Assembly: GCA_020851635.1 (NCBI GenBank)
Contig: JADZCJ010000038.1
Span: 1 to 55,817, forward strand
Reading direction: 5' to 3'
Length of the DNA: 55,817 bases
Source: Anaerolineae bacterium
GTDB taxonomy: Bacteria > Chloroflexota > Anaerolineae > UBA4142 > SHND01
Shown here: one piece after another, positions 1,476 to 26,365 of the stretch
How positions within the stretch are numbered: position 1 is the stretch's first letter
Layout of the letters: every line of letters starts with the position of its first letter
Made by a program: the position numbers and the translations under genes
Notes under the pieces: generated by a model
Database searches by the model: none
Seen by the model: only the letters and a program-made list of their open reading frames with translations
What the model was told of the DNA's origin: nothing

Positions 1476-3167
1476 ATGTCAGCGATAGATCCGATTTTGC
1501 TGTCCGTATTGCGGAGGCGGTTCAAGTCCATCACGGAAGAGATGGGGTTGACGCTGCTGCGAACAACGCGCTCGCCGATCTTGAGCGAGGCGCGTGATTT
1601 TGTGACGGGGTTGTATGACGCGCAGGGGAATATGCTGGAACAGACCGAGTATATTCCCGTGCTGGCGTTTGCGCTGCAACCGGTGTGCAAAAATATCGTC
1701 GCATATTTTGGGGACAAACTGTATCCCGGCGATGTGATTCTGCACAATGATGTTTTCAGCGGGGGCAACCAGTTGGCGGATGTGGCGGTGTTCAAACCCA
1801 TCTTTTTTGAAAATCAATTGGTCGCGTGGGCGGCGTGCAAGGGACATCAAGCGGACATTGGCGGCGCGGTGGCGGGCGGATACAACCCGCAAGCGCGCGA
1901 GGTATGGCAGGAGGGGCTGCGGATTCCACCGGTGAAATTGTACGAGCGCGGGGAGCTGCGACAGGATGTCTGGGATTTTGTGTTTGCGAACATTCGTTTG
2001 CCGATCGTGCAGGACGACATCCGCGCCGAGATCGGCGGCTGCACCATTGGCGAGCGGCGTTTGATGCAGGTATTTGAGCGTTATGGCATCGAGCGAGTGC
2101 GCGAACATATTGACGCGTTGTATGACGCGACGGAAAAGCAGATGCGCGCCGAGATTGCGCGGATTCCCGATGGGACGTATCGCGGCGCGAGCACGGTGTA
2201 TTTTGACAGCATCCGCGAAGCAAGCGAGATGCAAATTGTCGTAACCGTGACAAAAGCGGGTGACGAGATTTCGTTTGACTATACGGGAACCTCAGCGCAG
2301 ACGCCGGGTTTTGTGAACGCGCCGCTCAATACCACACTGTCCGCGCTGCTGTTGACCTTTTTGATGCTGGTGGACCCGGATATTCCGCACAACGCGGGCT
2401 TGATGCGCCCAATTCATGTGACGGTGCCGGAGGGGAGTTTTTTGAACCCGCGTTATCCCGCCGCGACGACGTTTGGCAACACATTGACGGGACCCCACTC
2501 GGACGCGTTGTTCCGCGCGCTGGCGGACGCGCTGCCGCAGCGCGTGACTGCCGCATGGAACCGTGTGCTGGCGTGCAACCTGGTGGGACACGACCCGCGC
2601 TTTGGGCGGCGGTATGTAGACATTTTGTTCTTGTCGCAAAAGGGCGGTTCGGGGGCTACCTATGGCGTGGACGGATACGACCACATCGGATTGATCAACT
2701 GTGCGGGCGGCATTTTGGCGCAGGACTATGAGATGTTTGAACTGCAGACGCCGAATTTTTTGCGTCGGCACGAGTATTGGCGCGATTCGGCGGGCGCGGG
2801 GCAGTGGGACGGCGGGCTGGGCATTTATACCGAGATGGAGCTGCGCGGCGACAACAATATGGCAATCGTCTATGGCGATGGGGTGGATGAGAATGCGCGC
2901 GCGTTCGGCGTGTTTGGCGGTCAGCCCGGGGCGGCGAACCGCATCGAATTTGTGCTGCCGGATGGGCAGGGCGTGACGCCGCGCGTCAAGGACAAGGTGG
3001 AGAATCTGCCAAAGGGGACGGTATTTCGCCAATGGGCGGGAGGCGGAGGCGGTTACGGAGACCCGCGCAAGCGTGAGCAGGGGTTGGTGCGTGCCCGTAT
3101 GCGGGATGGGTTGTTGTCACGCGAAAAAGCGATGGATGTGTATGGGATCGAATTGGACGGGTTATAG
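1476..3167 (+). CDS. hyuB: Hydantoinase B / oxoprolinase-family subunit (HyuB-like), copy 1
   Basis: This 563-residue protein aligns by eye along its whole length with the HyuB / acetone-carboxylase-alpha family. It starts with DPILLSVLRRRF, has NDxxxGGNQLAD near residues 91-102 and GHQADIGG at 123-130, and ends in the Gly-rich AGGGGGYGDP. In this family HyuB works with HyuA in ATP-dependent opening of cyclic amides (hydantoins, 5-oxoproline) or in ATP-dependent carboxylation of ketones. The residue usually seen as His in the first motif (GGxH) is Gln here. The paired hyuA begins six bases downstream, so the two are surely one complex. The substrate is unknown. The ATG lacks a clear ribosome-binding site but fits the family N-terminus. 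Confidence 0.85.
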   Translation: MSAIDPILLSVLRRRFKSITEEMGLTLLRTTRSPILSEARDFVTGLYDAQGNMLEQTEYIPVLAFALQPVCKNIVAYFGDKLYPGDVILHNDVFSGGNQLADVAVFKPIFFENQLVAWAACKGHQADIGGAVAGGYNPQAREVWQEGLRIPPVKLYERGELRQDVWDFVFANIRLPIVQDDIRAEIGGCTIGERRLMQVFERYGIERVREHIDALYDATEKQMRAEIARIPDGTYRGASTVYFDSIREASEMQIVVTVTKAGDEISFDYTGTSAQTPGFVNAPLNTTLSALLLTFLMLVDPDIPHNAGLMRPIHVTVPEGSFLNPRYPAATTFGNTLTGPHSDALFRALADALPQRVTAAWNRVLACNLVGHDPRFGRRYVDILFLSQKGGSGATYGVDGYDHIGLINCAGGILAQDYEMFELQTPNFLRRHEYWRDSAGAGQWDGGLGIYTEMELRGDNNMAIVYGDGVDENARAFGVFGGQPGAANRIEFVLPDGQGVTPRVKDKVENLPKGTVFRQWAGGGGGYGDPRKREQGLVRARMRDGLLSREKAMDVYGIELDGL

Positions 3168-3172
3168 AGAAT

Positions 3173-11567: not shown

Positions 11568-11591
11568 ATGATGCGTGGAGAGACAAAGATA

Positions 11592-12278
11592 ATGCAGCCG
11601 ACAACAGTTTCGGAAATGATTCGAGAACGGATAATCAAGCGCCGCGGGCGTTTGCGCGTTTTTCAGGATTTGGACGCGAACAAGATGGCGCTGGTCATCG
11701 TGGACATGCAGAATGTGTTTTGTCAGCCGGGCGGCGCGTTGGAAATCGCTGCGTCGCGTGACACGACGGACAATGTGAACCGGCTGGCGGATGAATGTCG
11801 CGCGGCAAAGATTCCCGTGATTTGGATTCGTTCGTATCACCCGGCAGGCGGCGCGGACTGGAAGATGTTTTTTGACTATTTTATTTCGCCGGAACGGGGC
11901 AAGTTGGCGGCGGAACAACTGCAACAGGATAATCCCGGCTCGGCAATCTATTCCGAGATGCGCGTGGACCCCTCCGATTACATTCTCTCCAAGAACCGCT
12001 ATTCGTGTTTGATTCCCGGCTCGTCATCGCTCGAACGGCTGCTGCGGAGTTTGAAACGGGATACACTGATCATTTGCGGCACGCGCTCGAATGTGTGCTG
12101 CGAATCCACCTCGCGCGATGCAATGATGCTCGATTTCAAAGTGTTGTTTGTCAGCGACGGAACTTCGGCGATGAGTGATTACGAGCACCAGGCGACGCTG
12201 GACACGCTGGCGCAGTCGTTTGCAGACGTGATGACGACGGATGAGGTGATTGCAGAAATCAAAGGGGCGGCGGCGTGA
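11592..12278 (+). CDS. Cysteine amidohydrolase, isochorismatase / N-carbamoylsarcosine-amidase family
   Basis: This 228-residue protein of the isochorismatase-like hydrolase superfamily shows the catalytic triad: D38 in VIVDMQN, K134 in SKNRYS and C169 in TRSNVCCEST. Relatives include N-carbamoylsarcosine amidase, ureidoacrylate amidohydrolase, biuret hydrolase and nicotinamidase. It ends one base before a hyuBA pair. In creatinine and hydantoin breakdown, N-methylhydantoinase (HyuA/HyuB) makes an N-carbamoyl amino acid, which a hydrolase of this family cleaves to sarcosine, CO2 and ammonia. That role is attractive but inferred. ATG 11592 is preferred, with GGAGAG ten bases upstream; an in-frame ATG at 11568 would add eight poorly matching residues. 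Confidence 0.8.
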   Translation: MQPTTVSEMIRERIIKRRGRLRVFQDLDANKMALVIVDMQNVFCQPGGALEIAASRDTTDNVNRLADECRAAKIPVIWIRSYHPAGGADWKMFFDYFISPERGKLAAEQLQQDNPGSAIYSEMRVDPSDYILSKNRYSCLIPGSSSLERLLRSLKRDTLIICGTRSNVCCESTSRDAMMLDFKVLFVSDGTSAMSDYEHQATLDTLAQSFADVMTTDEVIAEIKGAAA

Positions 12279-12279
12279 A

Positions 12280-14283
12280 ATGATTGATCCGATTACACTA
12301 GAAATTTTCCGGTCGCGGTTGGCGGCGATCAATGATGAGGCGGCGACGACGCTGCGGCTCGTTTCGGGGTCGCCGGTCGCAAACGAAGCGCATGACATGA
12401 ACACCGCGCTCATGACGCCCGCCGGGGAGGCGTTTGCCATCGGCGTGTATATCTCGATCCATGCCATGTCGCTCGCGTCCACCGTCCAAACCATCGTGCG
12501 CGAATATGCGGACAATCCCGGTATCTCGGAAGGGGATATCTGGATGTCGAATGACCCGTATGTGGGCGCGTGCCATCAAATGGATGTGGTGGTGGTCGCC
12601 CCCATTTTCTTTGACGGCGAGTTGGTCGCATGGACGGGCGGGACGTGCCACCAGATTGATCTGGGCGGTCCGGTCGAGGGTCAGGTGCAGATCGGCGCGA
12701 AATCCATTTATGGCGAACAGCCGCTGGTGACGCCGATCAAGTTTGTGGAAAAAGGTGTTGTCCGCAAGGATTTGGAATGGTTGTTTTTGCGCCATTCGCG
12801 CTTGCAAAACCTCGCCGCGCTGGACCTCAAAGCAATGATTGCGGCGTGTAATGTGGCGACCGAACGGCTCAGGGAATTGATCGGGCGGTACGGAATCGAA
12901 ACCTACAAGGACGCGGTCAGCAGCATTATCGAGACGACTGAAAAGCAATTCCGCGCGCGGGTGCGCGAGCTGCCCGACGGGACCTTTCGGCATCGCGGCT
13001 ATATTGACGCCGACGGCGCTGTGTATCCCGTAGTGGTTTCGATGACCAAAGAGGACGACCACCTGACGTTTGATTTTTCGGAATCGGCGCCGCAAGCGCC
13101 CGCGCTGGTCAACTGCTGCCGCCCCGCGCTGGAAGGCGCGACGATTTCCGCCATCCTGCCGTATTTGTGCTATGACATTCCGTGGTGTCCCGCCGGGATT
13201 GCGCGGGCGGTAGAGATTGTTTCCAAGCCCGGAACGGTCGTGCATGCGGAATGGCCCGCCGGCGTTTCCAAAGCGACGACGACGGGCAGCTATATGGCGA
13301 CTATCAGTTCGAGCGTATGCATGTCGAAACTGCTCGCCGCATCAGAAACCTATCGGGACCACGTGATGGCGACATGGATGGGCGGTCTGTTTGTCGAAGA
13401 ATTGTTCGGAACAGACCAGCGCGGCAATTATTTTGGCGGCACGATTCTGGACGCGATGGCGGGCGGCTCGGGCGCGCGCAGTTACAAGGACGGGATTGAT
13501 ACGGGCGGCTTTTTGGATTCGCCTTCTTCGATCATTGCCAACATCGAGGATTACGAGTTCAACTATCCCGTTCTCTATATGTACCGGCGACAGCAAGCGG
13601 ATACGGGCGGCGCGGGCAAGTTTCGCGGCGGCGCGACGGTGAGCATGATGTATATGGCGCATGATGTCGGGATGATTCCGACAAAAATCATGCATGCCAT
13701 CGGCGTGGAACAACCCGGCTCGGCGGGGATTGCGGGCGGGCTGCCTTCATGCACGAACCAGTTTGTGCTCAAGCGGGACAGCAATATTCGCGCGCTGCTC
13801 GGGCGCGGAATCATTCCACAAGAATTGTCCGAGGTCAAGGGCACGCTGGAAGTGGCAACGGGCATCACGCCGACGTATCAAGGCAAGAATGATGTGTATC
13901 ATTGCATTGGTATGGGCGGCGGAGGATATGGCGACCCGCTGACGCGCGATCCCGAACTGGTGATGCGCGATGTGGTGAACGGGCTGGTGACGCCCAAATG
14001 GGCGGCGAAAATTTATGGTGTGGTCGTGCGCGCAAACCCGTGGCGGCTTGACCTCGCCGCGACGCAAAAGCAGCGTGAGGCGGTGTATAGGGAGCGGCAA
14101 AAGAATGCGGAAGACGGAAAAAGCGCGGCAAAAGACCGGGGACGAACGGCGAAAAGTAAAGTGTCGGGCGCGAAACGTCAATCGTCTCGCGTCAAGCATG
14201 CCGTCGCCGCGCCCAAGAAAAAATTGGCAATACAAGTAAAAACCAAGCAAACCAAAACCAAAGCGCGAGTGAAAAAAGCATGA
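12280..14283 (+). CDS. hyuB: Hydantoinase B / oxoprolinase-family subunit (HyuB-like), copy 2, with basic tail
   Basis: This 667-residue HyuB homologue is a diverged paralogue of the one at 1476. It shows MIDPITLEIFRSRL at the N-terminus, NDPYVGACHQMD near 91 and CHQIDLGG near 122, so it keeps the His that copy 1 lacks. The Gly-rich GMGGGGYGDP follows at the usual place. The final ~60 residues, from about 606, are almost all Lys, Arg, Ala, Ser and Thr and have no family counterpart. The DNA there resembles the intergenic periodic repeats, so the tail probably arose by read-through into repeat sequence. ATG 12280 lies one base after the amidohydrolase stop. The stop overlaps the next hyuA start. 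Confidence 0.85.
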   Translation: MIDPITLEIFRSRLAAINDEAATTLRLVSGSPVANEAHDMNTALMTPAGEAFAIGVYISIHAMSLASTVQTIVREYADNPGISEGDIWMSNDPYVGACHQMDVVVVAPIFFDGELVAWTGGTCHQIDLGGPVEGQVQIGAKSIYGEQPLVTPIKFVEKGVVRKDLEWLFLRHSRLQNLAALDLKAMIAACNVATERLRELIGRYGIETYKDAVSSIIETTEKQFRARVRELPDGTFRHRGYIDADGAVYPVVVSMTKEDDHLTFDFSESAPQAPALVNCCRPALEGATISAILPYLCYDIPWCPAGIARAVEIVSKPGTVVHAEWPAGVSKATTTGSYMATISSSVCMSKLLAASETYRDHVMATWMGGLFVEELFGTDQRGNYFGGTILDAMAGGSGARSYKDGIDTGGFLDSPSSIIANIEDYEFNYPVLYMYRRQQADTGGAGKFRGGATVSMMYMAHDVGMIPTKIMHAIGVEQPGSAGIAGGLPSCTNQFVLKRDSNIRALLGRGIIPQELSEVKGTLEVATGITPTYQGKNDVYHCIGMGGGGYGDPLTRDPELVMRDVVNGLVTPKWAAKIYGVVVRANPWRLDLAATQKQREAVYRERQKNAEDGKSAAKDRGRTAKSKVSGAKRQSSRVKHAVAAPKKKLAIQVKTKQTKTKARVKKA

Positions 14284-16367
14284 ATTACAGCATTGCGGTT
14301 GACAGCGGCGGGACATTTGCGGATTGTATTGTAGTGGACGAGCAAGGGCATGTCACCGCCGCCAAGGCGCCTTCGACGCCTGACGATTATTCGCGCGGAG
14401 TGCTAGATTCGGTCGAGCGCGCGGCGAAACAATTGACCATGACGTTGGACGACCTTTTGTCGCAGGCGACGTTGTTTGCGCATGGGACGACGGTGGCGAC
14501 AAACGCGTTGTTGACGCGGTCGGGGTCCCGAACGGGTTTGATTACCACGCTCGGGCACGAGGACGCGCTGATCATCGGGCGGACGGTCCAAAAGGTCGCG
14601 GGGTTGACCGAGGGCGAAATCACGTATCTGGCGCGGTTGGACAAGGCGGACCCGATTGTGCCGCGTCCGCTGATCAAAGGCGTGACCGAACGCGTGGATT
14701 ACAAGGGCGCGGTGATTGTGCCTTTGAACGAAAAGGATGCGCGCCGCGCGATCCGCGAATTGTTGGAGGAGGGTTGCGGCGCGATTGCAGTTTCGTTGTT
14801 GTGGTCATTTTTGTATCCCGCGCACGAACGGCGCATCCGAGAATTGATTCACGAGCAAGCCCCTGATGTGTTTGTGAGTTTGTCGCACGAACTGGCGCCC
14901 GTCATCAAGGAATACGAGCGCACGGCGACGACAGCGATCAATGCTTATCTTGGACAGGTGGCGGCGCGCTATTTGCAATCGTTGATAGAGCGGCTCAAGG
15001 CGCACGGTTTGAAACCCGAACCGGTGATCATGCAGTCGTCCGGCGGCGTGGTGCCGGTCGAACAGGCGCAGGCGCGCGCGGTGTCGCTGCTGTCGTCAGG
15101 ACCGGCGGGCGGTGTGATGGGTGCGGTGGAGCTGGGCAAAGCGCTCGGATATCGTGATTTGATCACCACCGATGTCGGCGGGACGAGTTTTGATGTGGGG
15201 TTGGTGGTGGAGGGTGAGCCGCAATTTTCGCTCTCGCCCGTCTTTGCGAAATATCACACAGTTTTGCCCAGCATTGACATCCCCTCGATTGGCGCGGGGG
15301 GCGGCAGTATTGCGTGGATCGAGCCGGGCGCGGGACTGCTCAAGGTGGGTCCGCGCAGCGCAGGTTCGGTGCCCGGTCCTGTATGTTACGACCAGGGTGG
15401 GACGGAACCGACGGTCACGGATGCGAATGTGGTCTTGAACCGTCTGAATCCGGATTTCTTTTTGGGCGGCTCGAAAAAGTTGCATGCAGACAAGGCGCGC
15501 GCGGCGATCGAGGAAAAAATCGCGCAGCCGCTCGGGATTTCGGTGCAAGAGGCGGCGTTGGGAATTATAGATATTCTCGATGCCAAGATGGCAGACCTGG
15601 TGCGCAAGGTGAGCATCGGGCGCGGGTATGACCCGCGCGATTTTGTGCTGTTGGCGTTCGGCGGAGCGGGTCCCATGCACGTGGGCGCGTATGCGCGTGA
15701 TGTCGGCGTGCGTGAGATCATCATTCCCGCGCATGCATCAGAATTTTCGGCGTGGGGCATTGTGGGTTCCGACCTGATGAATTTGCGACAGGTCTCGGAA
15801 CCGATGATCGCGCCGTTCGATCCCGCGCGACTGAACGAGATTTATCACGGTCTGGAGCAAGAGGCGCGGGCGACTTTGGCGCGCGAAGGAATATCGAATG
15901 GCAATGTATCATTCCTGCGCTATATTGACATGCGGTATCGCGGGCAGATTCACGAAGTGCGCGTGCCGGTGACGACGGATGAACTTGGCGAGCAAGAGCT
16001 GGCGAAAATTCACCAGACCTTTGAGGACACATATAACCGCAAATACGGACAGGGCGCGGCGTATCGCAAGGCGGGCATCGAAGCGCGGACGTATCAGGTG
16101 CGCGGTATTGGCAAGATTCCCAAACCGGCATGGGTGAAACACGAGGCGGGACCCGCGGATGCCTCCCCTGCGCTCAAGGAAACGCGGCAGGTCTATTTCA
16201 AAGGCGGTTGGCGCGCCACTCCCGTCTATGCGCGCGAACAGATGCGCACGGGCAATTGCGTCAACGGTCCGGCGTTGGTCGAAGCTGTAGACACGACGGT
16301 GCTCGTGCCACCGGATATGTCGCTGGCGATTGATGGGTATGGGAATATGGTGATGCAGGGAGTATGA
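14280..16367 (+). CDS. hyuA: Hydantoinase A / oxoprolinase-family ATPase subunit (HyuA-like), copy 2
   Basis: This 695-residue HyuA homologue has the ATP-binding VDSGGTFADC near residue 7 and TDVGGTSFDVGL near 297, GAGGGSIAW, and the C-terminal GPALVEAVDTTVLVPP. It pairs with the hyuB directly upstream (ATGA overlap) and is coupled to the CoA-transferase downstream by another four-base overlap, so hyuB, hyuA, the CoA-transferase and grdC are translated as one unit. It should act as the ATP-driven half of a cyclic amidase or carboxylase. It differs clearly from copy 1, so the two pairs probably handle different substrates or steps. Confidence 0.86.
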   Translation: MNYSIAVDSGGTFADCIVVDEQGHVTAAKAPSTPDDYSRGVLDSVERAAKQLTMTLDDLLSQATLFAHGTTVATNALLTRSGSRTGLITTLGHEDALIIGRTVQKVAGLTEGEITYLARLDKADPIVPRPLIKGVTERVDYKGAVIVPLNEKDARRAIRELLEEGCGAIAVSLLWSFLYPAHERRIRELIHEQAPDVFVSLSHELAPVIKEYERTATTAINAYLGQVAARYLQSLIERLKAHGLKPEPVIMQSSGGVVPVEQAQARAVSLLSSGPAGGVMGAVELGKALGYRDLITTDVGGTSFDVGLVVEGEPQFSLSPVFAKYHTVLPSIDIPSIGAGGGSIAWIEPGAGLLKVGPRSAGSVPGPVCYDQGGTEPTVTDANVVLNRLNPDFFLGGSKKLHADKARAAIEEKIAQPLGISVQEAALGIIDILDAKMADLVRKVSIGRGYDPRDFVLLAFGGAGPMHVGAYARDVGVREIIIPAHASEFSAWGIVGSDLMNLRQVSEPMIAPFDPARLNEIYHGLEQEARATLAREGISNGNVSFLRYIDMRYRGQIHEVRVPVTTDELGEQELAKIHQTFEDTYNRKYGQGAAYRKAGIEARTYQVRGIGKIPKPAWVKHEAGPADASPALKETRQVYFKGGWRATPVYAREQMRTGNCVNGPALVEAVDTTVLVPPDMSLAIDGYGNMVMQGV

Positions 16368-17509
16368 GTTATCCGTTGGAAGGGCTGCGGGTCCTCGATT
16401 TCTCGTGGTTTTTGGCGGGTCCGTATGCGACAATGATTTTGGCGGATTTGGGCGCGGACGTGGTCAAGGTGGAAGCGCCCGAACGCGGAGACCCGAGTCG
16501 CACAGCAGGACCGTTTGCGAATGGGGTCAGCGGATATTTTCTGAGCGTCAATCGAAACAAGCGCAGTATTGTGCTGGATCTAAAAAGTGAAGCGGGAAGG
16601 GCGCGGGCGGCAAAGCTGGCGGGGCGCGCGGATGTGGTCGTAGAGAATTTCGTCCCCGGCACGATGAAGCGCTGGGGATTGGATTATGCGACGCTGGCAG
16701 AGACAAACTCGCGTTTGATCTATGCTTCGTGCACCGGATTTGGGCAAACGGGTCCCCGCGCGCTCGAGTCGGCGTTTGACCTGGTTATACAGGCGCTGGC
16801 GGGGACGATGAGCATTACCGGTGAAGCGGGTGCAGCTCCGGTGCGGGTGGGCAATTCGATTGGCGATCTCGGCGGCGCGCTCTATTTGACAATCGGGATT
16901 TTGGCGGCGCTCCAAGCGCGGCATCGGACGGGGCGCGGGCAGGCGTTGGATTTGAGCATGATGGATGCTCAAGTCGCGCTGCTCGAAAATGCGTTCATGC
17001 GCTATTTTGTGACGGGTGAAACGCCCGCGCGACTGGGTTCGCGGCACCCGTTGATTGTGCCGTTTCAAGCGTTCCCGACGAGCGACGGGTATGTGGTCGT
17101 GACGGCGGGGACAGAAGCACAGTGGGGGCGGCTGTGTGAGGCGTTGGGCGCGAGCGAATTGAAAGAGGACGCGCGTTTTTTGACAAACACGGCGCGGCGG
17201 CAGAACATTCCCGCGCTGGAAACGGAATTGAGCGCGCGTTTCAAGACCCGCACGACCGATGAATGGCTCGAGATTCTGCGAGATCATGAAATTCCCTGCG
17301 CGCCGATCCAGACGATTGCGCAGGCGGCGAGTGATCCGCAAATTGCGGCGCGCGAAATGATCGTAAACGTTGAGGACGCGCAGGCGGGGACACAGCGGAT
17401 TGTGAATACGCCGCTGCGCTTTTCCGAGATGCAGAGCGGCGTGCGGACGAGCGCGCCGCAGTTGGGTGAACATACGGACGAAATTCTGAGGGACTGGTTG
17501 GCGGAATGA
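16364..17509 (+). CDS. CaiB/BaiF-family (class III) CoA-transferase
   Basis: This 381-residue family III CoA-transferase begins LEGLRVLDFSWFLAGPYATMILADLGADVVKVE, the standard N-terminal signature, and contains GQTGP and the catalytic Asp D168 in SIGDLGG, matching D169 of formyl-CoA transferase. These enzymes move CoA between carboxylic acids without ATP. The four-base overlaps with hyuA before it and grdC after it imply that CoA activation is a direct step of the pathway, either charging the acid released by the hydantoinase/carboxylase or receiving an acyl group. The substrates are not predictable. Confidence 0.88.
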   Translation: MSYPLEGLRVLDFSWFLAGPYATMILADLGADVVKVEAPERGDPSRTAGPFANGVSGYFLSVNRNKRSIVLDLKSEAGRARAAKLAGRADVVVENFVPGTMKRWGLDYATLAETNSRLIYASCTGFGQTGPRALESAFDLVIQALAGTMSITGEAGAAPVRVGNSIGDLGGALYLTIGILAALQARHRTGRGQALDLSMMDAQVALLENAFMRYFVTGETPARLGSRHPLIVPFQAFPTSDGYVVVTAGTEAQWGRLCEALGASELKEDARFLTNTARRQNIPALETELSARFKTRTTDEWLEILRDHEIPCAPIQTIAQAASDPQIAAREMIVNVEDAQAGTQRIVNTPLRFSEMQSGVRTSAPQLGEHTDEILRDWLAE

Positions 17510-18942
17510 AATATCCTGTTGTTAAAGCGGTGACATTGGTGTTGGCGCATGTGCCACATTTTGCGCGGTATGGCTCCAAGCCGCTGCGCGAGATTCCGCG
17601 CGATGAGCAGGCGTTGGGGCAAATCGAAAGCGCGCTGCGAAGTTTTGACCAGGCGCGCGATTATGCGCCGCATCAGGTGTATATCGGCAACATGCGCCCC
17701 GAGGCGCTGGCGGCGATTGAAAAACCGTGGTACGCGCATACCAAAACGTCCGACCGTTTCGGCCCGCATGGCGAAATCATTCCCGAAGACGAGTTTTATG
17801 GATTGATGGCGATTGCCGACCAGTTTGATTTGTTTCGCCTGGAAAAGGAATTTGCCGCGCGCGTGCGCGAACGTTTGAGCGAACATCCGCTCATCAAGCC
17901 CGAAGAATTGAAACCGCTCGACAAGGGGCTGCCGCTTGAACAGATCGAAACAATGATTGGGCAGGGGGCACTGCCGCTGTTTGTAAACGGCGGGACGCTG
18001 GTCGGCGCGATGCGGAGTGGACATGACGAGGATGATACGCTGACAGCGAATGTGCTGCTGGAAAATCTGGCGTGCAAGGCATCGGGCGCGTGGGCGATGC
18101 GGCATTTGACGAATGAACGGCACGGCGTTGATATTTCGCAGGTGGATTATGTGCTCGGCTGTGGTGAAGAAGGCGTCGGCGACCGCTATCAACGCGCGGG
18201 CGGGGCAATGGGCAAGGCGATGGCGGAATTTGCCGGATTCAGCGAGGCAAGCGGCTCGGATGTCAAGGCATTTTGTGCGGCGCCGATTCACGCGACCGTA
18301 ACCGGCGCGTCGTATGTCCAGTCCGGCTTGTATCGTAACATCGTCGTCGCGGGCGGTGGGTCACTGGCGAAATTGGGCATGAAATTCCGCGGGCATGTGA
18401 AACATCAGATGCCGATTCTGGAAGATGTGCTCGGCGCGGTGGCGATCGTGATTGGCCCCGACGACGGCAAGAATCCTGTCATTCGTCTGGACGGCGTTGG
18501 CATTCATCGCGTCAAGCACAGTTCATCGCCGCCCGCCATGATGCAGGCGCTGGTGGTCGAGCCGCTGGAACGGATGGGGCACAGAATGACCGACGTGGAC
18601 AAGTTTGCGCTGGAACTGCATAATGCCGAGATCACGGAACCGGCAGGCAGCGGCGATGTGGCGCTGACAAATTACAAGACGCTGGCGGGGATTGCGGTGA
18701 TGCGCAAGGAAATTGTGCGTGACGAGATGGATGCGTTTGTGCGCGAGCGCGGGATGCCGGGTTACTCGCCCACGCAAGGACATATCGCGGCGGCTGTCCC
18801 GTTTTTGGGTCACGCGCGCGACCGTATGTTGAACGGAGAGATGCAACGCGCGATGTTTGTGGGCAAAGGGAGCTTGTTTTTGGGACGGATGACGAATTTG
18901 TCGGACGGGATGTCGTTTGTGGTCGAGCCGAATGGGGGATAG
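17506..18942 (+). CDS. grdC: Glycine/sarcosine/betaine reductase component C, beta-subunit-like
   Basis: This 478-residue protein matches GrdC of the clostridial glycine reductase by recalled family sequence along its full length: HQVYIGNMRPEALAAIEKPWY, FGPHGEIIPEDEF, GSDVKAFCAAPIHA with the probable active Cys C257, ILEDVLG, MPGYSPTQGHI and KGSLFLGRMTNL. GrdC has a FabH-like fold. In the known system it takes the carboxymethyl group from the selenocysteine of GrdA as an acetyl thioester, which GrdD releases as acetyl phosphate. No grdD lies nearby; instead the gene is coupled to a CoA-transferase, which suggests that the acyl group may end on CoA. thioredoxin and grdA follow after a repeat-rich gap. 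The family call is strong, the acceptor is a guess. Confidence 0.88.
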   Translation: MKYPVVKAVTLVLAHVPHFARYGSKPLREIPRDEQALGQIESALRSFDQARDYAPHQVYIGNMRPEALAAIEKPWYAHTKTSDRFGPHGEIIPEDEFYGLMAIADQFDLFRLEKEFAARVRERLSEHPLIKPEELKPLDKGLPLEQIETMIGQGALPLFVNGGTLVGAMRSGHDEDDTLTANVLLENLACKASGAWAMRHLTNERHGVDISQVDYVLGCGEEGVGDRYQRAGGAMGKAMAEFAGFSEASGSDVKAFCAAPIHATVTGASYVQSGLYRNIVVAGGGSLAKLGMKFRGHVKHQMPILEDVLGAVAIVIGPDDGKNPVIRLDGVGIHRVKHSSSPPAMMQALVVEPLERMGHRMTDVDKFALELHNAEITEPAGSGDVALTNYKTLAGIAVMRKEIVRDEMDAFVRERGMPGYSPTQGHIAAAVPFLGHARDRMLNGEMQRAMFVGKGSLFLGRMTNLSDGMSFVVEPNGG

Positions 18943-19184
18943 TGGGATTTTTGATTTCTGATTTTGGATTGCTGATTGCTGATTGGAGGATGAGACCTGT
19001 CAGGCGAGTGCGATAAAGAAAAAGTTGGTTGACAAATTGCGACCGGACAATCGGGATGAAAACGCGAATCTGCGCGAATTTTTGCGAATGGGACTCGAAT
19101 TTGCCAGCTTGGTTATTGTGCGCCGCATGATAAATTGGCGATTTCAAGCGGGCTGTTGTGGGGATGCCGCATAGGAGGGATGAA
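18943..19184. other. Repeat-rich gap between grdC and the thioredoxin gene
   Basis: These 242 bases hold no convincing gene. The first part (about 18949-18987) is period-7 sequence (TTTTTGA, TTTCTGA, TTTTGGA, TTGCTGA, TTGCTGA). At 19061-19090 lies one copy of a dispersed ~30-bp GCGAATT-rich repeat whose second copy is at 26403-26432. The gap ends with the strong ribosome-binding site AGGAGG of the thioredoxin gene. It may have replaced a lost gene such as grdD, or may hold a promoter for trx-grdA; no clear -35/-10 pair was found. Confidence 0.6.
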
Positions 19185-19520
19185 ATGGCGTTACCGGAAG
19201 TGAATACGGCGACGTTTGCGGAGCAGGTGTTGGGGGCGGACAAGCCGGTGCTGGTGGATTTTTGGGGACCGCGCTGCCAACCGTGTATCGCGCTGATGCC
19301 GACCGTCGAACAGTTGGCGCAGCAGAACGCCGAACGGCTCAAGGTGGTCAAGGTGAATGCGAACGCGCGTGAAAATTGGGAGCTGTGCCGCACGCAGAGC
19401 GTGATGGGCTTGCCCGCGTATTTGATTTTTAGTGAGGGCAAAGAAGTCAAACGGATGGCGGGAAAAGACGTGACGCGCGAGACGTTGGTGGACGCGATTC
19501 AAGAGTTGTTTGCCGACTAG
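19185..19520 (+). CDS. Thioredoxin of the glycine-reductase type (CQPC active site)
   Basis: This 111-residue thioredoxin-fold protein reads VLVDFWGPRCQPCIALMP, with the redox pair C31/C34 as CQPC rather than the usual CGPC, and a cis-Pro in MGLPAYLIF. Thioredoxins encoded next to clostridial grd genes have the same style of altered site (WGPxCxxC) and re-reduce the mixed selenide-sulfide of GrdA after each turnover. It lies directly upstream of grdA, so a dedicated role as electron donor is likely. The start at ATG 19185 is fixed by AGGAGG at 19173-19178; the longer open frame from 19158 is not needed. Confidence 0.9.
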   Translation: MALPEVNTATFAEQVLGADKPVLVDFWGPRCQPCIALMPTVEQLAQQNAERLKVVKVNANARENWELCRTQSVMGLPAYLIFSEGKEVKRMAGKDVTRETLVDAIQELFAD

Positions 19521-19548: not shown

Positions 19549-20004
19549 ATGGAGCTCAAGGGTAGAAAAGTGATTGCGCTCGGCGAACGGGACGGCGTTC
19601 CGGGAACGGCGATTGCCGATCTGGTAAAGACGGCGGGCGCGGACGTTGTCTTGACGCTGACGCAATGCTATGTCTGAACGGCGGCAGGTGCAATGGACCT
19701 GGACGACCAGTCGTTGATCTTGCGGGCAGCGCAAGAGCATGGCAACGACGTGGTCGTGGTGTTGGGGCAGCCGGACCCGGACAGCGCCGAAATGGCAGCT
19801 GAAACGGTCCACAATGGCGACCCCACCTACGCCGGACCATTAGCCGGAGTCTCGTTGGGACTCCCCGTCTATCACATATTGGAAGATGAAATTCAAAATC
19901 AGGTTGACCCTGCGAAATTCGAGGCAGAGGTCGGCTTGATGGCGCTCACCCTCGACAAGGATGCGATCCGCGAGGGGATGGGCCGTGTTCGTAATGCCGG
20001 ATAA
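19549..20004 (+). CDS. grdA: Selenoprotein A of glycine/sarcosine/betaine reductase (UGA decoded as selenocysteine)
   Basis: Reading TGA 19675-19677 as selenocysteine gives an uninterrupted 151-residue GrdA. The N-terminal half runs ELKGRKVIALGERDGVPG, then the redox motif C40-Y-V-Sec43 followed at once by TAAGAMDL, the hallmark of the family. The second half has AAETVHNGDPTYAGPLAG, LPVYHILEDE and VGLMALTLDKDAI, all typical. GrdA carries the carboxymethyl group on its selenolate between the substrate-specific component B and GrdC. Length is close to the usual ~157. GGAG lies four bases before ATG 19549, and thioredoxin is 28 bases upstream. A standard gene caller would break this gene or drop its first half. 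Function requires selA, selB, selC and selD elsewhere in the genome. Confidence 0.93.
19678..19710 (+). promoter_or_regulatory. Candidate bacterial SECIS hairpin after the grdA UGA
   Basis: Just after the UGA, CAGGT (19685-19689) pairs with ACCTG (19697-19701) around the seven-base loop GCAATGG, which starts with G. The apical loop begins 13 bases after the UGA. That is compatible in form, although at the short end, with known bacterial SECIS elements that recruit SelB inside the coding region. The codon after UGA is ACG, so the hairpin must be compatible with the conserved TAAGAMDL sequence. Confidence 0.6.
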
Positions 20005-20092: not shown

Positions 20093-20144
20093 GGAAACTG
20101 TTTTGCATGATGCAGCCCCGGACGCAACCTGAAAGTTGAGAGCT

Positions 20145-21623
20145 ATGTCACGAATTGATTGGAATTGGATACAGAGCGAGCCGTATGAAATGTTTATCGG
20201 CGGCGAATGGACGCGCGGTTCTGCGGGACGGACGTTCGAGATCGTCAATCCCGCAAACAACGAGACGATTGCGCGTGCGTACGAAGGGAATCTGGATGAT
20301 GTAAACCGCGCCGTAGCTGCGGCGCGCGACGCGTTCGATAACGGTCCGTGGCGACACATGACGGGCAAGGAACGGGGCGAAATTCTGCGGCGCACGGCGG
20401 AGATGATTCGCGCGGACGCGACCAAGTTTGCGTTTCTGGAAGCGGCGGATGTGGGCAAGACGTTCCACCGCACCCTCGGGTATTCGATTCCACAGGCGAT
20501 TGACGGGTTCGAGTATCATGCCGCCAGGGCGCGCGAGATTGAGGGAAAAGTGCGCGCGGTCCCCGAACGAAACTTTTTCAATTATCGCACCTGGGAACCC
20601 ATGGGCGTGGTGGCAGAAATTTTGCCGTGGAACGGTCCGTTCATGATGGCGTGCCAAAAGGTCTCGGCGATTCTGGCGGCAGGCAATACAGTCGTCATCA
20701 AACCCGCGCAGGATGGGAGTCTGAGCAATCTCGAACTGGCGAAATTGTTTGCCAAAGCGGGCTTTCCGCCGGGCGTGGTCAATATTGTGGCGGGACCGGG
20801 GCGCGCACTGGGCGCGCGGTTGGTGGAACATCCCGATGTCAACATGGTCTCGCTGACGGGCGGGACCGAGACGGGCAAGCAGGTGATTCGCCAATCCGCC
20901 GATACGGTAAAAAAGGTCGCTTTGGAATTGGGCGGCAAGAACCCGCACATTGTGTTCGAGGACGCCGATCTGCCGCAAGCGGTGCAGTGGGCGATCTGGG
21001 CGGCGTATGCGGACCAGGGTCAAATTTGCGTGTCGGGATCGCGGCTGCTGCTGCACAAACCGATCTATGAGGAATTTTTAGATTTGTTTGTCAACAAGGT
21101 GAGCGCACTCAAAATCGGCGACACGATGAGCGAAACGACGGATGTGGGTCCCGTGATTACGCGGCGGCACGAGCAGTCAATCCTCGATTACATCGCAATC
21201 GGCAAGCAAGAGGGCGCGGTGACGATCCTGGGCGGAAACAAAGTGACGAGTGCGCCGTTCGACCGCGGGAATTTTATCGAGCCGACGATATTTACGGGTG
21301 TCACGCCCGACATGCGGATCGCGCAAGAAGAAATTTTTGGACCCGTCGTCACGGTGACGATGTTTAACGACGACGCGGAAGCGGTGCGGATTGCGAACGG
21401 GGTGAAATATGGGCTGGCGGGCGGCATCTGGACGCAGGATATTGACCGCGCGCTGCGGACGGCGAGCCAACTGCAAGCGGGACAGATTTATTTGAATTCG
21501 TATTACAGTCCCGCGATTGTGGACTCGCCCGCAGAGGGGCACAAAGAGAGTGGCATCGGCGGGACGGGCGTACACAAGTATATGCAGGAAAAGACAGTGT
21601 TTGTGAAATTAAAGCTGGATTGA
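20145..21623 (+). CDS. NAD(P)-dependent aldehyde dehydrogenase
   Basis: This 492-residue protein of the ALDH superfamily contains the PWNGPFMMACQKVSAILAAG cofactor segment, E261 in LELGGKNP as general base and C295 in GQICVSGSR as nucleophile, at the standard 34-residue spacing. It oxidises an aldehyde to the acid, or to a CoA ester, with NAD(P)+. Its place between the Grd genes and the acyl-CoA genes suggests use on an intermediate of the same pathway. ATG 20145 gives the normal N-terminus; an in-frame TTG nine bases earlier is less likely. The stop codon lies inside the left arm of a strong hairpin. Confidence 0.88.
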   Translation: MSRIDWNWIQSEPYEMFIGGEWTRGSAGRTFEIVNPANNETIARAYEGNLDDVNRAVAAARDAFDNGPWRHMTGKERGEILRRTAEMIRADATKFAFLEAADVGKTFHRTLGYSIPQAIDGFEYHAARAREIEGKVRAVPERNFFNYRTWEPMGVVAEILPWNGPFMMACQKVSAILAAGNTVVIKPAQDGSLSNLELAKLFAKAGFPPGVVNIVAGPGRALGARLVEHPDVNMVSLTGGTETGKQVIRQSADTVKKVALELGGKNPHIVFEDADLPQAVQWAIWAAYADQGQICVSGSRLLLHKPIYEEFLDLFVNKVSALKIGDTMSETTDVGPVITRRHEQSILDYIAIGKQEGAVTILGGNKVTSAPFDRGNFIEPTIFTGVTPDMRIAQEEIFGPVVTVTMFNDDAEAVRIANGVKYGLAGGIWTQDIDRALRTASQLQAGQIYLNSYYSPAIVDSPAEGHKESGIGGTGVHKYMQEKTVFVKLKLD

Positions 21624-21664
21624 TTTTTGTCAACGTAACTCTGTTACGTTGGCAAAAATCAATC
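21618..21664. promoter_or_regulatory. Long hairpin between aldehyde and acyl-CoA dehydrogenase genes
   Basis: A 22-bp stem with a single G-T pair is formed by 21618-21639 and 21643-21664 around a three-base loop. It contains the upstream stop codon and ends nine bases before the TTG start of the next gene, where it could cover the ribosome-binding region or stabilise the upstream message. There is no proper T-run on the + strand. Confidence 0.65.
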
Positions 21665-21673
21665 AGACCGCAT

Positions 21674-22816
21674 TTGGATTTCAATCTTTCTGAAGAGCAG
21701 ACATTGTTCCGCGATTCGGTGCGGGCGTTTGTGGCGCGCGAGGTGGCGCCGTGTGCGCGAGAAATGGACGAGCGCGACGAGTTTCCGCGTCAATTGTTCA
21801 AGCGGTGCGGCGAGCTGGGCTATTTTGCGGTGCGCTATCCCGAAGACGTCGGCGGGATGGGCGGCGACGCGCTGACGTTTGTGCTGATGATAGAAGAACT
21901 GGCGCGCGGGTCGCTGGCGCTGGCGTCGGTGGTGGGGATGCAGGGGTTGAACGGCACAGACCTGTTGTTTCACCTCGGCACGGCAGAACAAAAGGAACGC
22001 GTGCTGAAACCCGCGCTGCGCGGGGAAAAAATCGGCACGATTGCGATCACGGAACCGGATGCGGGTTCGGACATTGGCGGCATTACGACGACGGCGCGGC
22101 GCGAAAGCGATGTGTGGGTGCTGGAGGGGCAAAAAATCTGGATCACGTCCGCCACGGTCGCCGATTTTTTTATTGTGGCGGCAAAAACAGACCCGACGCT
22201 CGGCACCAAGGGAATTGATTTGTTCATGGTCGAAAAAGAGATGCCCGGCGTTTCGGTGGGCAGGCGGATCGAAAAATTGGGCACGCGCGGCTCGGAAACA
22301 TCCGAAGTGATTTTTGAAAGCGTGCGGGTGCCGCACGAAAATTTGTTGGGCGAACGCGGCACGGGGTTTCGCCATTTGGGCAAGACGCTGGCGGAAATTC
22401 GAGCCATGACGGGCGCGCTTGGGGTAGGGTTGGCGCAGGCGGCGCTGGATGCTTCATTGGCGTATGCGCAGCAGCGGACCCAATTCGGACGACCGATCGT
22501 CCAGTTTCAAGCGATCGCGCACAAGTTGGCGCACATGGGGACGCAGATCGAAGCGGCGCGGGCGCTGGTGTATCGCGCGGCGTGGCTGGTGAGCGCGGGC
22601 AAGCCCGACGTGAAATTGTCGGCGATGGCAAAATATTTTGCCACAGAAACGGCAAACCATTGCGCGGACCAGGCGACGCGGATTTTCGGCAGCTATGGGT
22701 TTGCGCTCGAGTATGACGCGCAGCGCTATTTTAGGGACGCGCGCTTTTTGTTGTATGGCGCGGGCACGAGCGAAATTTTATTGTCTTTGATCGCCAAAGA
22801 GATGGGGGCAGCATGA
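21674..22816 (+). CDS. Acyl-CoA dehydrogenase
   Basis: This 380-residue flavoprotein of the acyl-CoA dehydrogenase family begins DFNLSEEQTLFRDSVRAFV. FAD and substrate signatures are AITEPDAGSDIGGI and WITSATVADFFIVAAKT, with a C-terminal RIFGSYGFALEYDAQRYFRDAR and GAGTSEI. The Glu that acts as base in short-chain mitochondrial enzymes (YEGTSEI) is not at that place (YGAGTSEI), as in many bacterial members that use another Glu. It would introduce a double bond next to the CoA carbonyl. TTG 21674 is chosen because the family N-terminus begins there; upstream codons belong to the hairpin. The stop overlaps the MaoC start. Confidence 0.88.
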   Translation: MDFNLSEEQTLFRDSVRAFVAREVAPCAREMDERDEFPRQLFKRCGELGYFAVRYPEDVGGMGGDALTFVLMIEELARGSLALASVVGMQGLNGTDLLFHLGTAEQKERVLKPALRGEKIGTIAITEPDAGSDIGGITTTARRESDVWVLEGQKIWITSATVADFFIVAAKTDPTLGTKGIDLFMVEKEMPGVSVGRRIEKLGTRGSETSEVIFESVRVPHENLLGERGTGFRHLGKTLAEIRAMTGALGVGLAQAALDASLAYAQQRTQFGRPIVQFQAIAHKLAHMGTQIEAARALVYRAAWLVSAGKPDVKLSAMAKYFATETANHCADQATRIFGSYGFALEYDAQRYFRDARFLLYGAGTSEILLSLIAKEMGAA

Positions 22817-23256
22817 CACAGCGCGGACTAACTTTTGACCAGTTCAATGTAGGTGACAGTTTTGTTTCGCCGCGTCGCACGGTGACGGAAGCGGACGTGG
22901 TGAATTTCGTCGGTGTATCGTGGGACATTAACCCGCTGCACACGGACGCCGAGTTTGCCAAAGGGACGCCCTTTGGCGAGCGCATCGCGCACGGGATGTT
23001 GATCGCATCCATCGGGACGGGTTTGGGCAATCAAATCGGCGTCCTGGAAGGGACGACGCTCGCGCTGATGGAGCAGGTGATTCGCTACAAGGGACCCGTC
23101 AAGTTGGGCGATACGGTGAACCTGGAATTGATCGTCAAGGAAAAGCGCGAGACATCGAAACCCGACCGCGGAGTGGTGATCTTTGATACCCCGATCAAGA
23201 ATCAACGCGGCGAGACGGTGGTCGAGATGCAGTGGACGTTGTTGATGAAAAGATAG
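22813..23256 (+). CDS. MaoC-like (R)-specific enoyl-CoA hydratase
   Basis: This 147-residue single hot-dog protein has hydratase-2 residues in the motif DINPLHTDAEFAKGTPFGERIAHGML, with the catalytic Asp and His in DxNPLH. It would hydrate the enoyl-CoA made by the acyl-CoA dehydrogenase directly upstream, to which it is coupled by an ATGA overlap. With the reductase and thiolase that follow it completes a beta-oxidation-like sequence. Confidence 0.88.
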   Translation: MTQRGLTFDQFNVGDSFVSPRRTVTEADVVNFVGVSWDINPLHTDAEFAKGTPFGERIAHGMLIASIGTGLGNQIGVLEGTTLALMEQVIRYKGPVKLGDTVNLELIVKEKRETSKPDRGVVIFDTPIKNQRGETVVEMQWTLLMKR

Positions 23257-23267
23257 CGTTGAGCATA

Positions 23268-23305
23268 GAGTGACGAAGGACGAAAGGCGGGGACGAAGGA
23301 CGGGT
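23268..23305. repeat. Degenerate 7-bp periodic spacer
   Basis: The gap before the reductase reads GACGAAG, GACGAAA, GGCGGGG, ACGAAGG, ACGG. It is open in frame with the next gene, so automatic start selection could wrongly include it in the protein. Confidence 0.6.
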
Positions 23306-23320
23306 GCAATGGAGGAGAAT

Positions 23321-24085
23321 ATGCGATTCGAGGACAAAGTGGTGCTGGTGACGGGGGGGGGAAGCGGGATCGGGCGCGCGACCGCGCTGCGGTTTGCAAA
23401 CGAGGGCGCGCGGCTTGTGATTTCCGATGTGGATGAAGCGGGCGCGGGCGCGCTGGCAGAGGAGATCAACCAGAACGGGCGAGCGACCCTGGTTTTGGGC
23501 AACGTGGCAGTGCGCGCCGATGCGGAGCGGATGGTGCAAGCGGCGCTGGACTCGTTCGGGCGGTTGGATATCCTCATCAACAATGCGGGCATCACACGCG
23601 ATGCGCTGACGGTGCGAGTCAAGGACGGCGAAACCAAACGCATGAGCGAAGAGCAGTGGGATGCGGTGCTCGATGTGAACTTGAAAGGAACGTTTCTGGT
23701 TTCGCAAGCGGCGGCGGTCCCGATGATGGCACAAAAATTTGGACGGATCGTGAATACGGCGTCGGTCGGCGCGCTGGGCAATATCGGTCAGGCGAACTAT
23801 TCGGCGTCGAAAGCGGGGGTCATCGGGCTGACAAAAACATTCGCGCTCGAATGGGCGCGCTACAACATTACCGTGAATGCGGTTGCGCCGGGGGCGGTCA
23901 AAACGCGCATGACCTCGACCATTCCCGAAAACGTCGCAAATCAACTGAGCGAAAGAATCCCGCTGAAACGCTGGGCGGAGCCGGAAGACATTGCGGCGGT
24001 GCATGCGTTCCTGGCGAGCGACGATGCGCGTTATGTGACGGGTCAGGTGATCTGGGTGGATGGCGGCTTGACGTTGGGGGCATAG
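23321..24085 (+). CDS. Short-chain dehydrogenase/reductase, FabG-like
   Basis: This 254-residue Rossmann-fold oxidoreductase shows the cofactor loop TGGGSGIG at residues 11-18, NNAG, and the catalytic Ser and YxxxK in NTASVGALGNIGQANYSASK. It ends in VTGQVIWVDGGLTLGA, typical of 3-oxoacyl-(ACP/CoA) reductases. It probably oxidises the hydroxyacyl-CoA from the MaoC hydratase. The start ATG 23321 has GGAGGA at 23311-23316; the open frame back to 23270 is repeat-derived. Confidence 0.9.
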   Translation: MRFEDKVVLVTGGGSGIGRATALRFANEGARLVISDVDEAGAGALAEEINQNGRATLVLGNVAVRADAERMVQAALDSFGRLDILINNAGITRDALTVRVKDGETKRMSEEQWDAVLDVNLKGTFLVSQAAAVPMMAQKFGRIVNTASVGALGNIGQANYSASKAGVIGLTKTFALEWARYNITVNAVAPGAVKTRMTSTIPENVANQLSERIPLKRWAEPEDIAAVHAFLASDDARYVTGQVIWVDGGLTLGA

Positions 24086-24091
24086 ACCGAC

Positions 24092-25306
24092 ATGAAATTT
24101 GAGAATGTGTATATCCCGTATAGGGGTTACTGGGCGACACCGTTCGTCAAATGGCAGGGGAATTTTGCGAACCTGCACCCTCTGGTCTTTGCCGCCGAAG
24201 TGACAAGGCGCGCGCTGGCGGAACGGAATCTCGCGCCGACGGATTTTGACGCGCTGTTTCTCGGCACCACGGTCCCGTCCAAAGGCGCGTTCTATGGCGC
24301 GCCGTGGGTGGCGGGGATGATTGGGGCGGAAGGGTTGACAGGTCCGACGATTGCACAGGCGTGTGCGACTTCGGCGCGGGTGCTCGCGAATGCGGCATCC
24401 GAAGTGGAAAACGGGAACGCGGATGCAATTCTGTGTCTGACCGCCGACCGCACCTCGAACGGACCGCACATGTTGTATCCGAACCCGCAAAATCCGGGCG
24501 GGCGCGGGGATGCGGAAGATTGGGTGTGGGATAATTTCAACCATGACCCATGGGCAAAGCTGGGAATGCTCGAAACCGCCGAAAATATCGCGCGCGAGTT
24601 TGAAATCACGACCGCAGAGCAGCACGAGGTCGTTTTGATTCGACACGCGCAGTATGCGGATGCGCTCAAGAATGATGGAGCATTTCACAAAAGTTTTATG
24701 GTGACGCCGATTGAGGTCAAGGATGCGAGCGGTCGCAAGGTAATGGCAACGGTGTCTACCGACGAGGGAGTTTTTCCCACCACTGTCGAAGGATTGAGTC
24801 GACTGAAACCTGTCATGCGCGATGGGACCGTCACGTATGGCGCGCAAACCTTTCCCGCCGATGGGAATGCGGGGATGGTCGTGTCGGACCGCGAACGCGC
24901 AGGGCAAATGGATGCGCCGTTCCGCATCCGACTGGTTGCGGTCGGCGCGAGCCGCGTAAAAAAAGGGTTTATGGGGATTGCGCCCGTTCCGGCAGCGCAG
25001 CAAGCGCTCAAGGATGCGGGCATCGGCATTGACGATGTCGCGGCGATCAAGACGCACAACCCGTTCGTGGTGAATGACATCTATTTTGCGCGCGAGTTTG
25101 GATTGAAACATGACGCGCTCAACAATTACGGCTGTTCGCTGATCTGGGGGCATCCCCAGGGACCGACGGGGATGCGGCTGGTCGCCGAATTGATTCAAGA
25201 GCTGGCGCTGCGCGGGGGAGGTTACGGTCTGTTTGCGGGCTGCGCGGCGGGAGACACCGCCATGGCGGTCGTGGTCAAGGTGGATTCGAGCACATCTCGC
25301 GCTTGA
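24092..25306 (+). CDS. Thiolase-family acetyl-CoA acyltransferase
   Basis: This 404-residue thiolase has its nucleophilic Cys in QACATSARV near residue 91, the His in KTHNPFVVND and the second Cys in GCAAGDTAM. The N-terminus (FENVYIPYRGYWATPFVKWQGNF) is unusual compared with fadA/phaA thiolases, pointing to a divergent subgroup. It starts six bases after the reductase and would cleave the 3-oxoacyl-CoA. The long antisense frame of more than 700 codons over this gene and its neighbour is a composition artefact. Confidence 0.88.
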   Translation: MKFENVYIPYRGYWATPFVKWQGNFANLHPLVFAAEVTRRALAERNLAPTDFDALFLGTTVPSKGAFYGAPWVAGMIGAEGLTGPTIAQACATSARVLANAASEVENGNADAILCLTADRTSNGPHMLYPNPQNPGGRGDAEDWVWDNFNHDPWAKLGMLETAENIAREFEITTAEQHEVVLIRHAQYADALKNDGAFHKSFMVTPIEVKDASGRKVMATVSTDEGVFPTTVEGLSRLKPVMRDGTVTYGAQTFPADGNAGMVVSDRERAGQMDAPFRIRLVAVGASRVKKGFMGIAPVPAAQQALKDAGIGIDDVAAIKTHNPFVVNDIYFAREFGLKHDALNNYGCSLIWGHPQGPTGMRLVAELIQELALRGGGYGLFAGCAAGDTAMAVVVKVDSSTSRA

Positions 25307-25327: not shown

Positions 25328-26365
25328 ATGGAATCATCCGCTTTTCCCATTCGTTTTGGCGTTACCCTGCAAGGCGTTGAACCCCCGCGTGTGTTTCAAC
25401 AGCAAGTGCGCGAGATTGAAGCCGGTGGGTTTACCCACCTGTGGATTACGGACTCGTCGCTGCATGCGCGCTATGTTTACTCGTATTTGACGCTCGCCGC
25501 CCTGAACAGCGAACATTTGCAGTTGGGCACGGGGGTGACGCATCCGTTTACGCGACATCCTGCGATCAATGTAAATGCCATCGCAACCCTCGACGAAATT
25601 TCCGAGGGGCGCGCCATTCTCGGCATTGGCGCAGGCGACAGCCCGACCGTCGAGCTGGGCTATGCGCCCGCCAAAGTGCAAATTGTGCGCGAAATGATCG
25701 AGGTCGCGCGGCGATTGATGGCGGGCGAAACGTTGGATCATGAGGGTCCCGCGTTTCGGATCAAGCACGGGCATTTGCATTACAAATTCCGCGACCGCGT
25801 GCCGATTTATATGGCGTGCAGTGGACCGCGCATGTTGGAACTGGCGGGCGAACTGGCGGACGGCGTGATCGTCCAGTGCGGGCTGTTTCCCGAAGCGGTC
25901 GAGTTTGCGCGCGAACATGTGGCAAAAGGCGCGGCGCGTGCGGGGCGTTCGCTCGACGAGGTTGATTTTTGGGTGATGATGTGCGGGGCAATTTCGGAGG
26001 ACCGCGAGACGGCAATGAATCGCTCGCGGACGATGGCGGCCTGGTTCGCCCAGATGGCGCCGCACATGTGCGCCGTCGCGGGGATTGACCGCGCGACCAT
26101 CGCGAAAATTCAAGCGGCATACAGCGGTGGGGAATTTCACCAGGCGCAGGCGGCCGCTGCCTTGACGCCGGACGAAATGGTCGAATGCTTTACACTCGGC
26201 GGAACGCCCGACGACGCGCGGGCGCGCGTGGAACGGCTGATAGAGTGCGGCGTCAAAGGATTCAACTATATGCCGACGGGCGCGGGCAGACCCGAATCAT
26301 TGGGACTGTTTACGCGACAGGTGATGCCGTCGCTGCGAGCAGAAGAGGCGCTGATGGGCAAGTAA
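25328..26365 (+). CDS. LLM-class flavin/F420-dependent oxidoreductase
   Basis: This 345-residue TIM-barrel protein of the luciferase-like monooxygenase family, closest in style to F420-dependent methylenetetrahydromethanopterin-reductase-like enzymes, shows RFGVTLQG at the N-terminus, GTGVTHPFTRHPAINVNAIATLDEIS and GIGAGDSPTVELG. Members oxidise or reduce diverse small molecules with F420 or FMN. The substrate here is unknown. It follows the thiolase by 21 bases and probably belongs to the same transcript. Confidence 0.82.
   Translation: MESSAFPIRFGVTLQGVEPPRVFQQQVREIEAGGFTHLWITDSSLHARYVYSYLTLAALNSEHLQLGTGVTHPFTRHPAINVNAIATLDEISEGRAILGIGAGDSPTVELGYAPAKVQIVREMIEVARRLMAGETLDHEGPAFRIKHGHLHYKFRDRVPIYMACSGPRMLELAGELADGVIVQCGLFPEAVEFAREHVAKGAARAGRSLDEVDFWVMMCGAISEDRETAMNRSRTMAAWFAQMAPHMCAVAGIDRATIAKIQAAYSGGEFHQAQAAAALTPDEMVECFTLGGTPDDARARVERLIECGVKGFNYMPTGAGRPESLGLFTRQVMPSLRAEEALMGK

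Follow-up and report, generated by a model that had tools for sequence, protein, structure and literature searches.

Two questions are raised by the short open reading frame that follows grdC-like and thioredoxin genes in this Chloroflexota DNA: whether it is part of a functional selenoprotein, and where the acyl group formed by the corresponding reductase would go. GrdA and GrdB are textbook selenoproteins; in textbook accounts, the Grd selenoproteins belong to organisms that carry out Stickland fermentation and obtain ATP by way of acetyl phosphate. The canonical component C consists of GrdC and GrdD, of which the latter resembles a phosphotransacylase and forms acetyl phosphate. The overall glycine reductase reaction is described in a review (PMC13188914). 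The DNA analysed here (the window, 55,817 nucleotides) is one entire contig of a 5.8-Mb draft genome, which is 97.7% complete and consists of 144 contigs. The features around grdA are listed in the table.

Features around grdA (positions in the window)
Feature	Position	Strand	Evidence
Isochorismatase-fold amidase; RutB and N-carbamoylsarcosine amidohydrolase among relatives	11568..12278	+	Comparison of profiles and relatives
Hydantoinase B-like subunit	12250..14283	+	Profile matches
Hydantoinase A / 5-oxoprolinase / caprolactamase-alpha-like subunit; 4-nt overlap with next gene	14280..16367	+	Profile matches
CaiB-type family III CoA-transferase; 4-nt overlap with grdC	16364..17509	+	Pfam CoA_transf_3, 1.3e-135
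grdC, component C beta subunit, 478 aa, GrdD-less type; Cys257, His372, His426	17506..18942	+	NF040746, 635 bits (cut-off 450 bits); tree, residues, predicted KAS III/thiolase-type fold
Thioredoxin (CQPC), probable electron donor to GrdA	19158..19520; likely start ATG near 19185	+	Pfam Thioredoxin, 1.2e-19; NF047697, 93 bits
grdA, selenoprotein A of glycine/sarcosine/betaine-type reductase, 151 aa, CxxU motif	19549..20004	+	Pfam, NCBIfam, TGA conservation
In-frame TGA as selenocysteine (residue 43)	19675..19677	+	TGA in 92/92 homologous codons; Sec machinery in genome
Candidate SECIS apical hairpin, 5-bp stem, 7-nt loop starting with G	19685..19701	+	Sequence; folding moderately above controls
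Aldehyde dehydrogenase	20136..21623	+	Profile match; also after grdA in several Actinomycetota loci
Acyl-CoA dehydrogenase, MaoC-type hydratase, SDR and thiolase (beta-oxidation-like set, downstream)	21620..25306	+	Profile matches

Under the standard code (table 11), only a 103-aa open reading frame starting at 19693 was obtained at grdA, as the sequence-only reading had described when it proposed a hidden selenoprotein here. Reading the TGA as selenocysteine gave a 151-residue protein from ATG 19549 that contains TQCYVUTAAGAMDL. This read-through protein matched Pfam GRDA over residues 3-148 (1.5e-56) and NF040748 (selenoprotein A) with 194 bits (cut-off 130), that is, at full length and above the curated cut-off, and the profile alignment spanned both sides of the TGA. 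The homologous codon was TGA in all 92 GrdA matches from all loci fetched, a count in which a few contigs appear twice; a sequencing error at this codon is therefore very unlikely. When the protein was aligned with eight other GrdAs from Chloroflexota (50-63% identity), neither the Cys nor the Sec of the CxxU motif varied, and profile matches confirmed that grdC and a thioredoxin gene precede grdA. Judged from sequence, the gene almost certainly encodes a genuine selenocysteine-containing GrdA; as a protein, this GrdA adds one more member to a known family.

The G-first-loop hairpin noted earlier just after the UGA was present, with the stem CAGGT/ACCTG (19685-19689/19697-19701) and the loop GCAATGG, 13 nt after the TGA, and its folding signal as a SECIS was modest. 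The gain was small against dinucleotide shuffles (z -1.2 to -1.3). Against synonymous-codon shuffles, z reached -3.66 in this grdA for a stretch starting 9 nt from the TGA, and the mean of the GrdA family was weak (-0.4 to -0.76). The hairpin is consistent with a SECIS but is not proof of one.

The genome was searched for selenocysteine machinery, whose absence the sequence-only reading had regarded as evidence against a selenoprotein. All of selA, selB, selC and selD were found: tRNA-Sec with anticodon TCA at C22:149-241 (69.5 bits), SelB on contig C25 (349 bits), SelA on C65 (594 bits) and SelD on C107 (366 bits). The selD gene (C107:51778-52704, L133) has an in-frame TGA of its own near the start (...SCAG-TGA-AAKLG...), as in a Sec-containing selenophosphate synthetase. 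That the TGA in grdA is a nonsense mutation or assembly error in a dead gene, or that the contig is a contaminant, seems highly improbable. GrdA was found in none of 59 relatives, five of the same genus included, and the contamination estimate of the genome is 3.2%, both of which would fit such an explanation. However, all homologues have TGA at that codon, the sequence is conserved on either side of it, and the contigs carrying the window, GrdB, SelB, SelA, SelD and tRNA-Sec share a tetranucleotide make-up clearly unlike that of other GrdA loci, even that of a congener. The composition of the window also agrees with the remaining genome, and the Chloroflexota host proposed earlier is supported. 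Contamination and assembly error were thus rejected on the basis of composition and the universal TGA. The patchy occurrence is compatible with horizontal gain, and the grd trait was probably acquired in this way. No syntenic match to the window was seen in 20 partial contigs from one genome of the same genus, an uninformative result. The occurrence of Grd in Chloroflexota, which had been regarded as a notable extension, is not new, since glycine reductases of Dehalococcoidia and of a novel Chloroflexi family were reported previously (ISME J 2022, PMC9751293).

A more interesting point, overlooked in the sequence-only reading, is the missing GrdD. The GrdD model had no match in this genome at E<=0.001. 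Among the ten Chloroflexota GrdA genomes (this and nine others) none exceeded the cut-off, the nine others giving no more than PlsX-level scores, and 5 of 50 further GrdA genomes exceeded it; as this sample was drawn by similarity to the present GrdA, the proportions need not be those of all Grd systems. The weak matches to the GrdD model (13-35 bits) were like those of control genomes without Grd. Where GrdD stood beside GrdC, it was located directly after GrdC or fused to it, and it was never seen beside short GrdCs. The fusions L104:5783-8416 and L119:11831-14380 are single proteins of 878 and 850 aa. Acetate kinase was absent from this genome and from six of the nine other Chloroflexota GrdA genomes. 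Incompleteness was rejected as the cause of the missing GrdD, because 54 genomes besides this one (about 55 in all) also lack it and its absence goes together with the type of GrdC. The GrdD-less form was also present in two isolates, Desulfofundulus thermobenzoicus DSM 14055 (L053) and Bacillus sp. FJAT-44742 (L071); the latter has two grdA genes (6773 and 10001) in one Grd cluster without GrdD. No description of a GrdD-less Grd system was found in a literature search outside of which most subscription journals lay. The GrdD-less Grd complex is widespread and apparently undescribed.

In a maximum-likelihood tree of 80 GrdCs, the seven GrdD-linked proteins formed one clade (support 100/100), and the remaining 73, whose labels cover about ten phyla, were without GrdD. 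The median length of the GrdD-less GrdCs was 476 aa as compared with 515 aa for the GrdD-linked ones (512-516 aa or fusions), and a C-terminal tail of ~38 residues was missing from all 73. Cys257 was present in 80 of 80 proteins. Position 372 was His in 72 of the 73 GrdD-less GrdCs and Gln in all seven GrdD-linked ones, and K254 and K293 also differed between the two types. The difference at position 372 tracks one clade and may mark descent rather than function.

The AlphaFold2 model of GrdC (pLDDT 93) had structural matches with Z of about 21-23 to SpoVAD, OleA, FabH, HMG-CoA synthase and thiolase, the top VIA match being SpoVAD, a spore protein. Cys257 aligned with the active cysteine of KAS III. 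GrdC is thus predicted to have a KAS III/thiolase-type fold with a catalytic Cys, although a shared fold alone shows no function. In profile comparison of His372 with FabH and thiolase, no FabH occurred in the loci and the thiolase comparison reached the Cys region only; the HNP motif is present in both GrdC and the window thiolase, and the mapping of His372 rests on this motif likeness.

The genes for GrdB and GrdE were located on another contig, C4 (locus L011, minus strand), not adjoining grdA. GrdB (L011:5258-6570, minus strand) lies near GrdE and is a second selenoprotein hidden from standard ORF calling, with a TGA at L011:5516-5518 (TATUGTGTRCGAT); it matched GRDB and the selenoprotein B subfamily. 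Around it are genes for an ABC transporter, an FGGY kinase, a zinc alcohol dehydrogenase, a DeoC/LsrF-type aldolase and a flavin amine oxidase-like protein. Some Actinomycetota loci, for example L066, L068 and L083, have a single cluster in the order grdE-grdB-grdC-grdA-ALDH-ADH-FGGY-aldolase-ABC. Since the same parts form one cluster there, the window (grdC-trx-grdA-ALDH) and C4 (grdE-grdB-aldolase-ADH-FGGY-ABC) look like two halves of one pathway.

Of the motifs given in PMC9751293, the C4 GrdB has neither the one for glycine nor the one for sarcosine, and the same is true of 52 of 57 GrdBs from GrdD-less loci; given the strictness of these motifs, a mismatch says little about the substrate. 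The remaining five fit the glycine motif, and some GrdD-less systems may therefore reduce glycine. NCBIfam sarcosine models scored best for the C4 GrdB (521 bits, cut-off 800) and GrdE (334 bits, cut-off 780), both far below the cut-off, and GrdH (betaine reductase) scored 459 bits against GrdB, also below its cut-off (775). With GrdD and acetate kinase absent and neither motif present in this GrdB, the plain glycine, sarcosine or betaine reduction suggested earlier is not supported. In other genomes, an MttB-family trimethylamine methyltransferase without an internal stop follows grdA at L060:11032-12765 (Anaerolineales), a hint that the substrate at that locus is a quaternary or methylated amine, and three GrdB/GrdE pairs surround one grdC-grdA pair within 11.6 kb at L041 (G065), which suggests several substrate modules feeding one core.

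We also considered whether the neighbourhood of grdA indicates the substrate. The hydantoinase A/B genes and the isochorismatase-fold amidase recall the conversion of creatinine/N-methylhydantoin to sarcosine in Tissierella (PMC5364220). However, the amidase is nearer to a generic cysteine hydrolase and RutB than to N-carbamoylsarcosine amidohydrolase, and the window HyuA also matches acetophenone carboxylase and 5-oxoprolinase; this route was kept as a lead only. Hydantoinase genes were not found beside other grdA loci. The contig carries two hydantoinase B/A pairs (1476-5233 and 12250-16367), for which caprolactamase models were best but below cut-off. Downstream of the beta-oxidation genes, 25328-26365 encodes a luciferase-like protein with an F420-dependent oxidoreductase score (mer-like, below cut-off).

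Based on these results, we favour, with some reservation, a reductase composed of GrdA, GrdB, GrdE, GrdC and thioredoxin from which the acyl group would leave GrdC as acyl-CoA, not as acetyl phosphate; the acceptor and the order of reactions are our proposal. GrdE and GrdB would take up an alpha-substituted carbonyl compound and break the C-N (or C-X) bond in it, a carboxymethyl-type group would move to the selenocysteine of GrdA, and thioredoxin would supply electrons. The acyl group would then be bound to Cys257 of GrdC as a thioester. As GrdD, which would phosphorolyse acyl-GrdC, is missing, GrdC itself, with its predicted KAS III/thiolase-type fold and Cys-His-His set, may hand the acyl group to CoA. 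It is from the missing GrdD, the fold match and the alignment of Cys257 together that we infer this transfer from GrdA via Cys257 to CoA. The product would feed into CoA metabolism, and no ATP would be gained via acetyl phosphate. The CoA-transferase gene that overlaps grdC and the downstream acyl-CoA genes agree with chemistry at the CoA level but do not prove it.

An ordinary glycine, sarcosine or betaine reductase, in which a diverged or unrelated phosphotransacylase (PlsX, Pta) makes acetyl phosphate from acetyl-GrdC, appears unlikely. In its favour, GrdA, GrdB, GrdC and GrdE here show clear homology, many GrdA genomes contain PlsX-level matches, five GrdBs of GrdD-less loci carry the published glycine motif, and the function of GrdD could be supplied by an unrelated phosphotransacylase such as Pta. 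Nevertheless, this genome has no acetate kinase, the weak GrdD-model matches are similar to those of control genomes without Grd, and GrdD accompanies GrdC only within its own clade.

It is also rather improbable that the acyl group is merely hydrolysed from GrdC, the system serving as a reductive deaminase or detoxifier or as an electron sink with no energy gain. The lineages of many GrdD-less hosts are generally regarded as aerobic, and a fermentative ATP yield would be of little weight there; the absence of both GrdD and AckA fits such a role as well. On the other hand, a Cys-His-His thiolase-type site suits CoA transfer, and many CoA enzymes are encoded in the window operon, including the CoA-transferase, acyl-CoA dehydrogenase and thiolase. 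Transfer to CoA remains our preferred reading. More broadly, we tentatively raise the possibility of a separate, phylogenetically wide branch of selenium-dependent reductases, present also in lineages better known for aerobes, in which acyl-CoA would be formed directly from GrdA-bound intermediates via a Cys-His-His GrdC, GrdD would be confined to one lineage, and new substrates would be converted by many of the GrdB modules. A GrdD-less form spread over roughly ten phyla, among them lineages considered aerobic (Pseudonocardiales, Thermoleophilaceae and Nitrospinota), would mean for annotation that acetyl phosphate and ATP could no longer be inferred from glycine reductase genes, and it would point to further substrates for a powerful C-N bond-cleaving selenoenzyme.

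The present system resembles glycine reductase GrdABCDE of Peptoclostridium acidaminophilum and Clostridium sticklandii in its selenoprotein GrdA with CxxU, its selenoprotein GrdB, GrdE, GrdC and the thioredoxin gene adjoining grdA. It differs in that GrdD and acetate kinase are missing, GrdB is without the glycine motif, GrdC is short (478 aa) with no C-terminal extension and with His372 instead of Gln, and grdBE lies on a separate contig, amid genes for a sugar kinase, an aldolase and a transporter. It is like sarcosine reductase (GrdF/GrdG) in that the NCBIfam sarcosine models are best for its GrdB and GrdE, whereas both scores are well short of the curated cut-offs and GrdB lacks the published GrdF motif. 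The glycine reductases of Dehalococcoidia and other Chloroflexi share the phylum and have GrdB/GrdE homologues; the report on them covers GrdB/GrdE and the acetate-kinase route and does not name GrdC or GrdD in its main text (PMC9751293). In fluoroacetate reductase FarBE, the B component takes other substrates and feeds a shared A/C core, and the gene map of its host marks grdD (PMC10838667); similarity to FarE here is weak (152 bits, cut-off 675). Finally, GrdC resembles the KAS III/thiolase superfamily (FabH, OleA, HMG-CoA synthase and PhlABC) in its predicted fold and in the position of the active Cys, whereas its identity in structural alignments is only about 8-18%, and it is larger and a partner of a selenoprotein.
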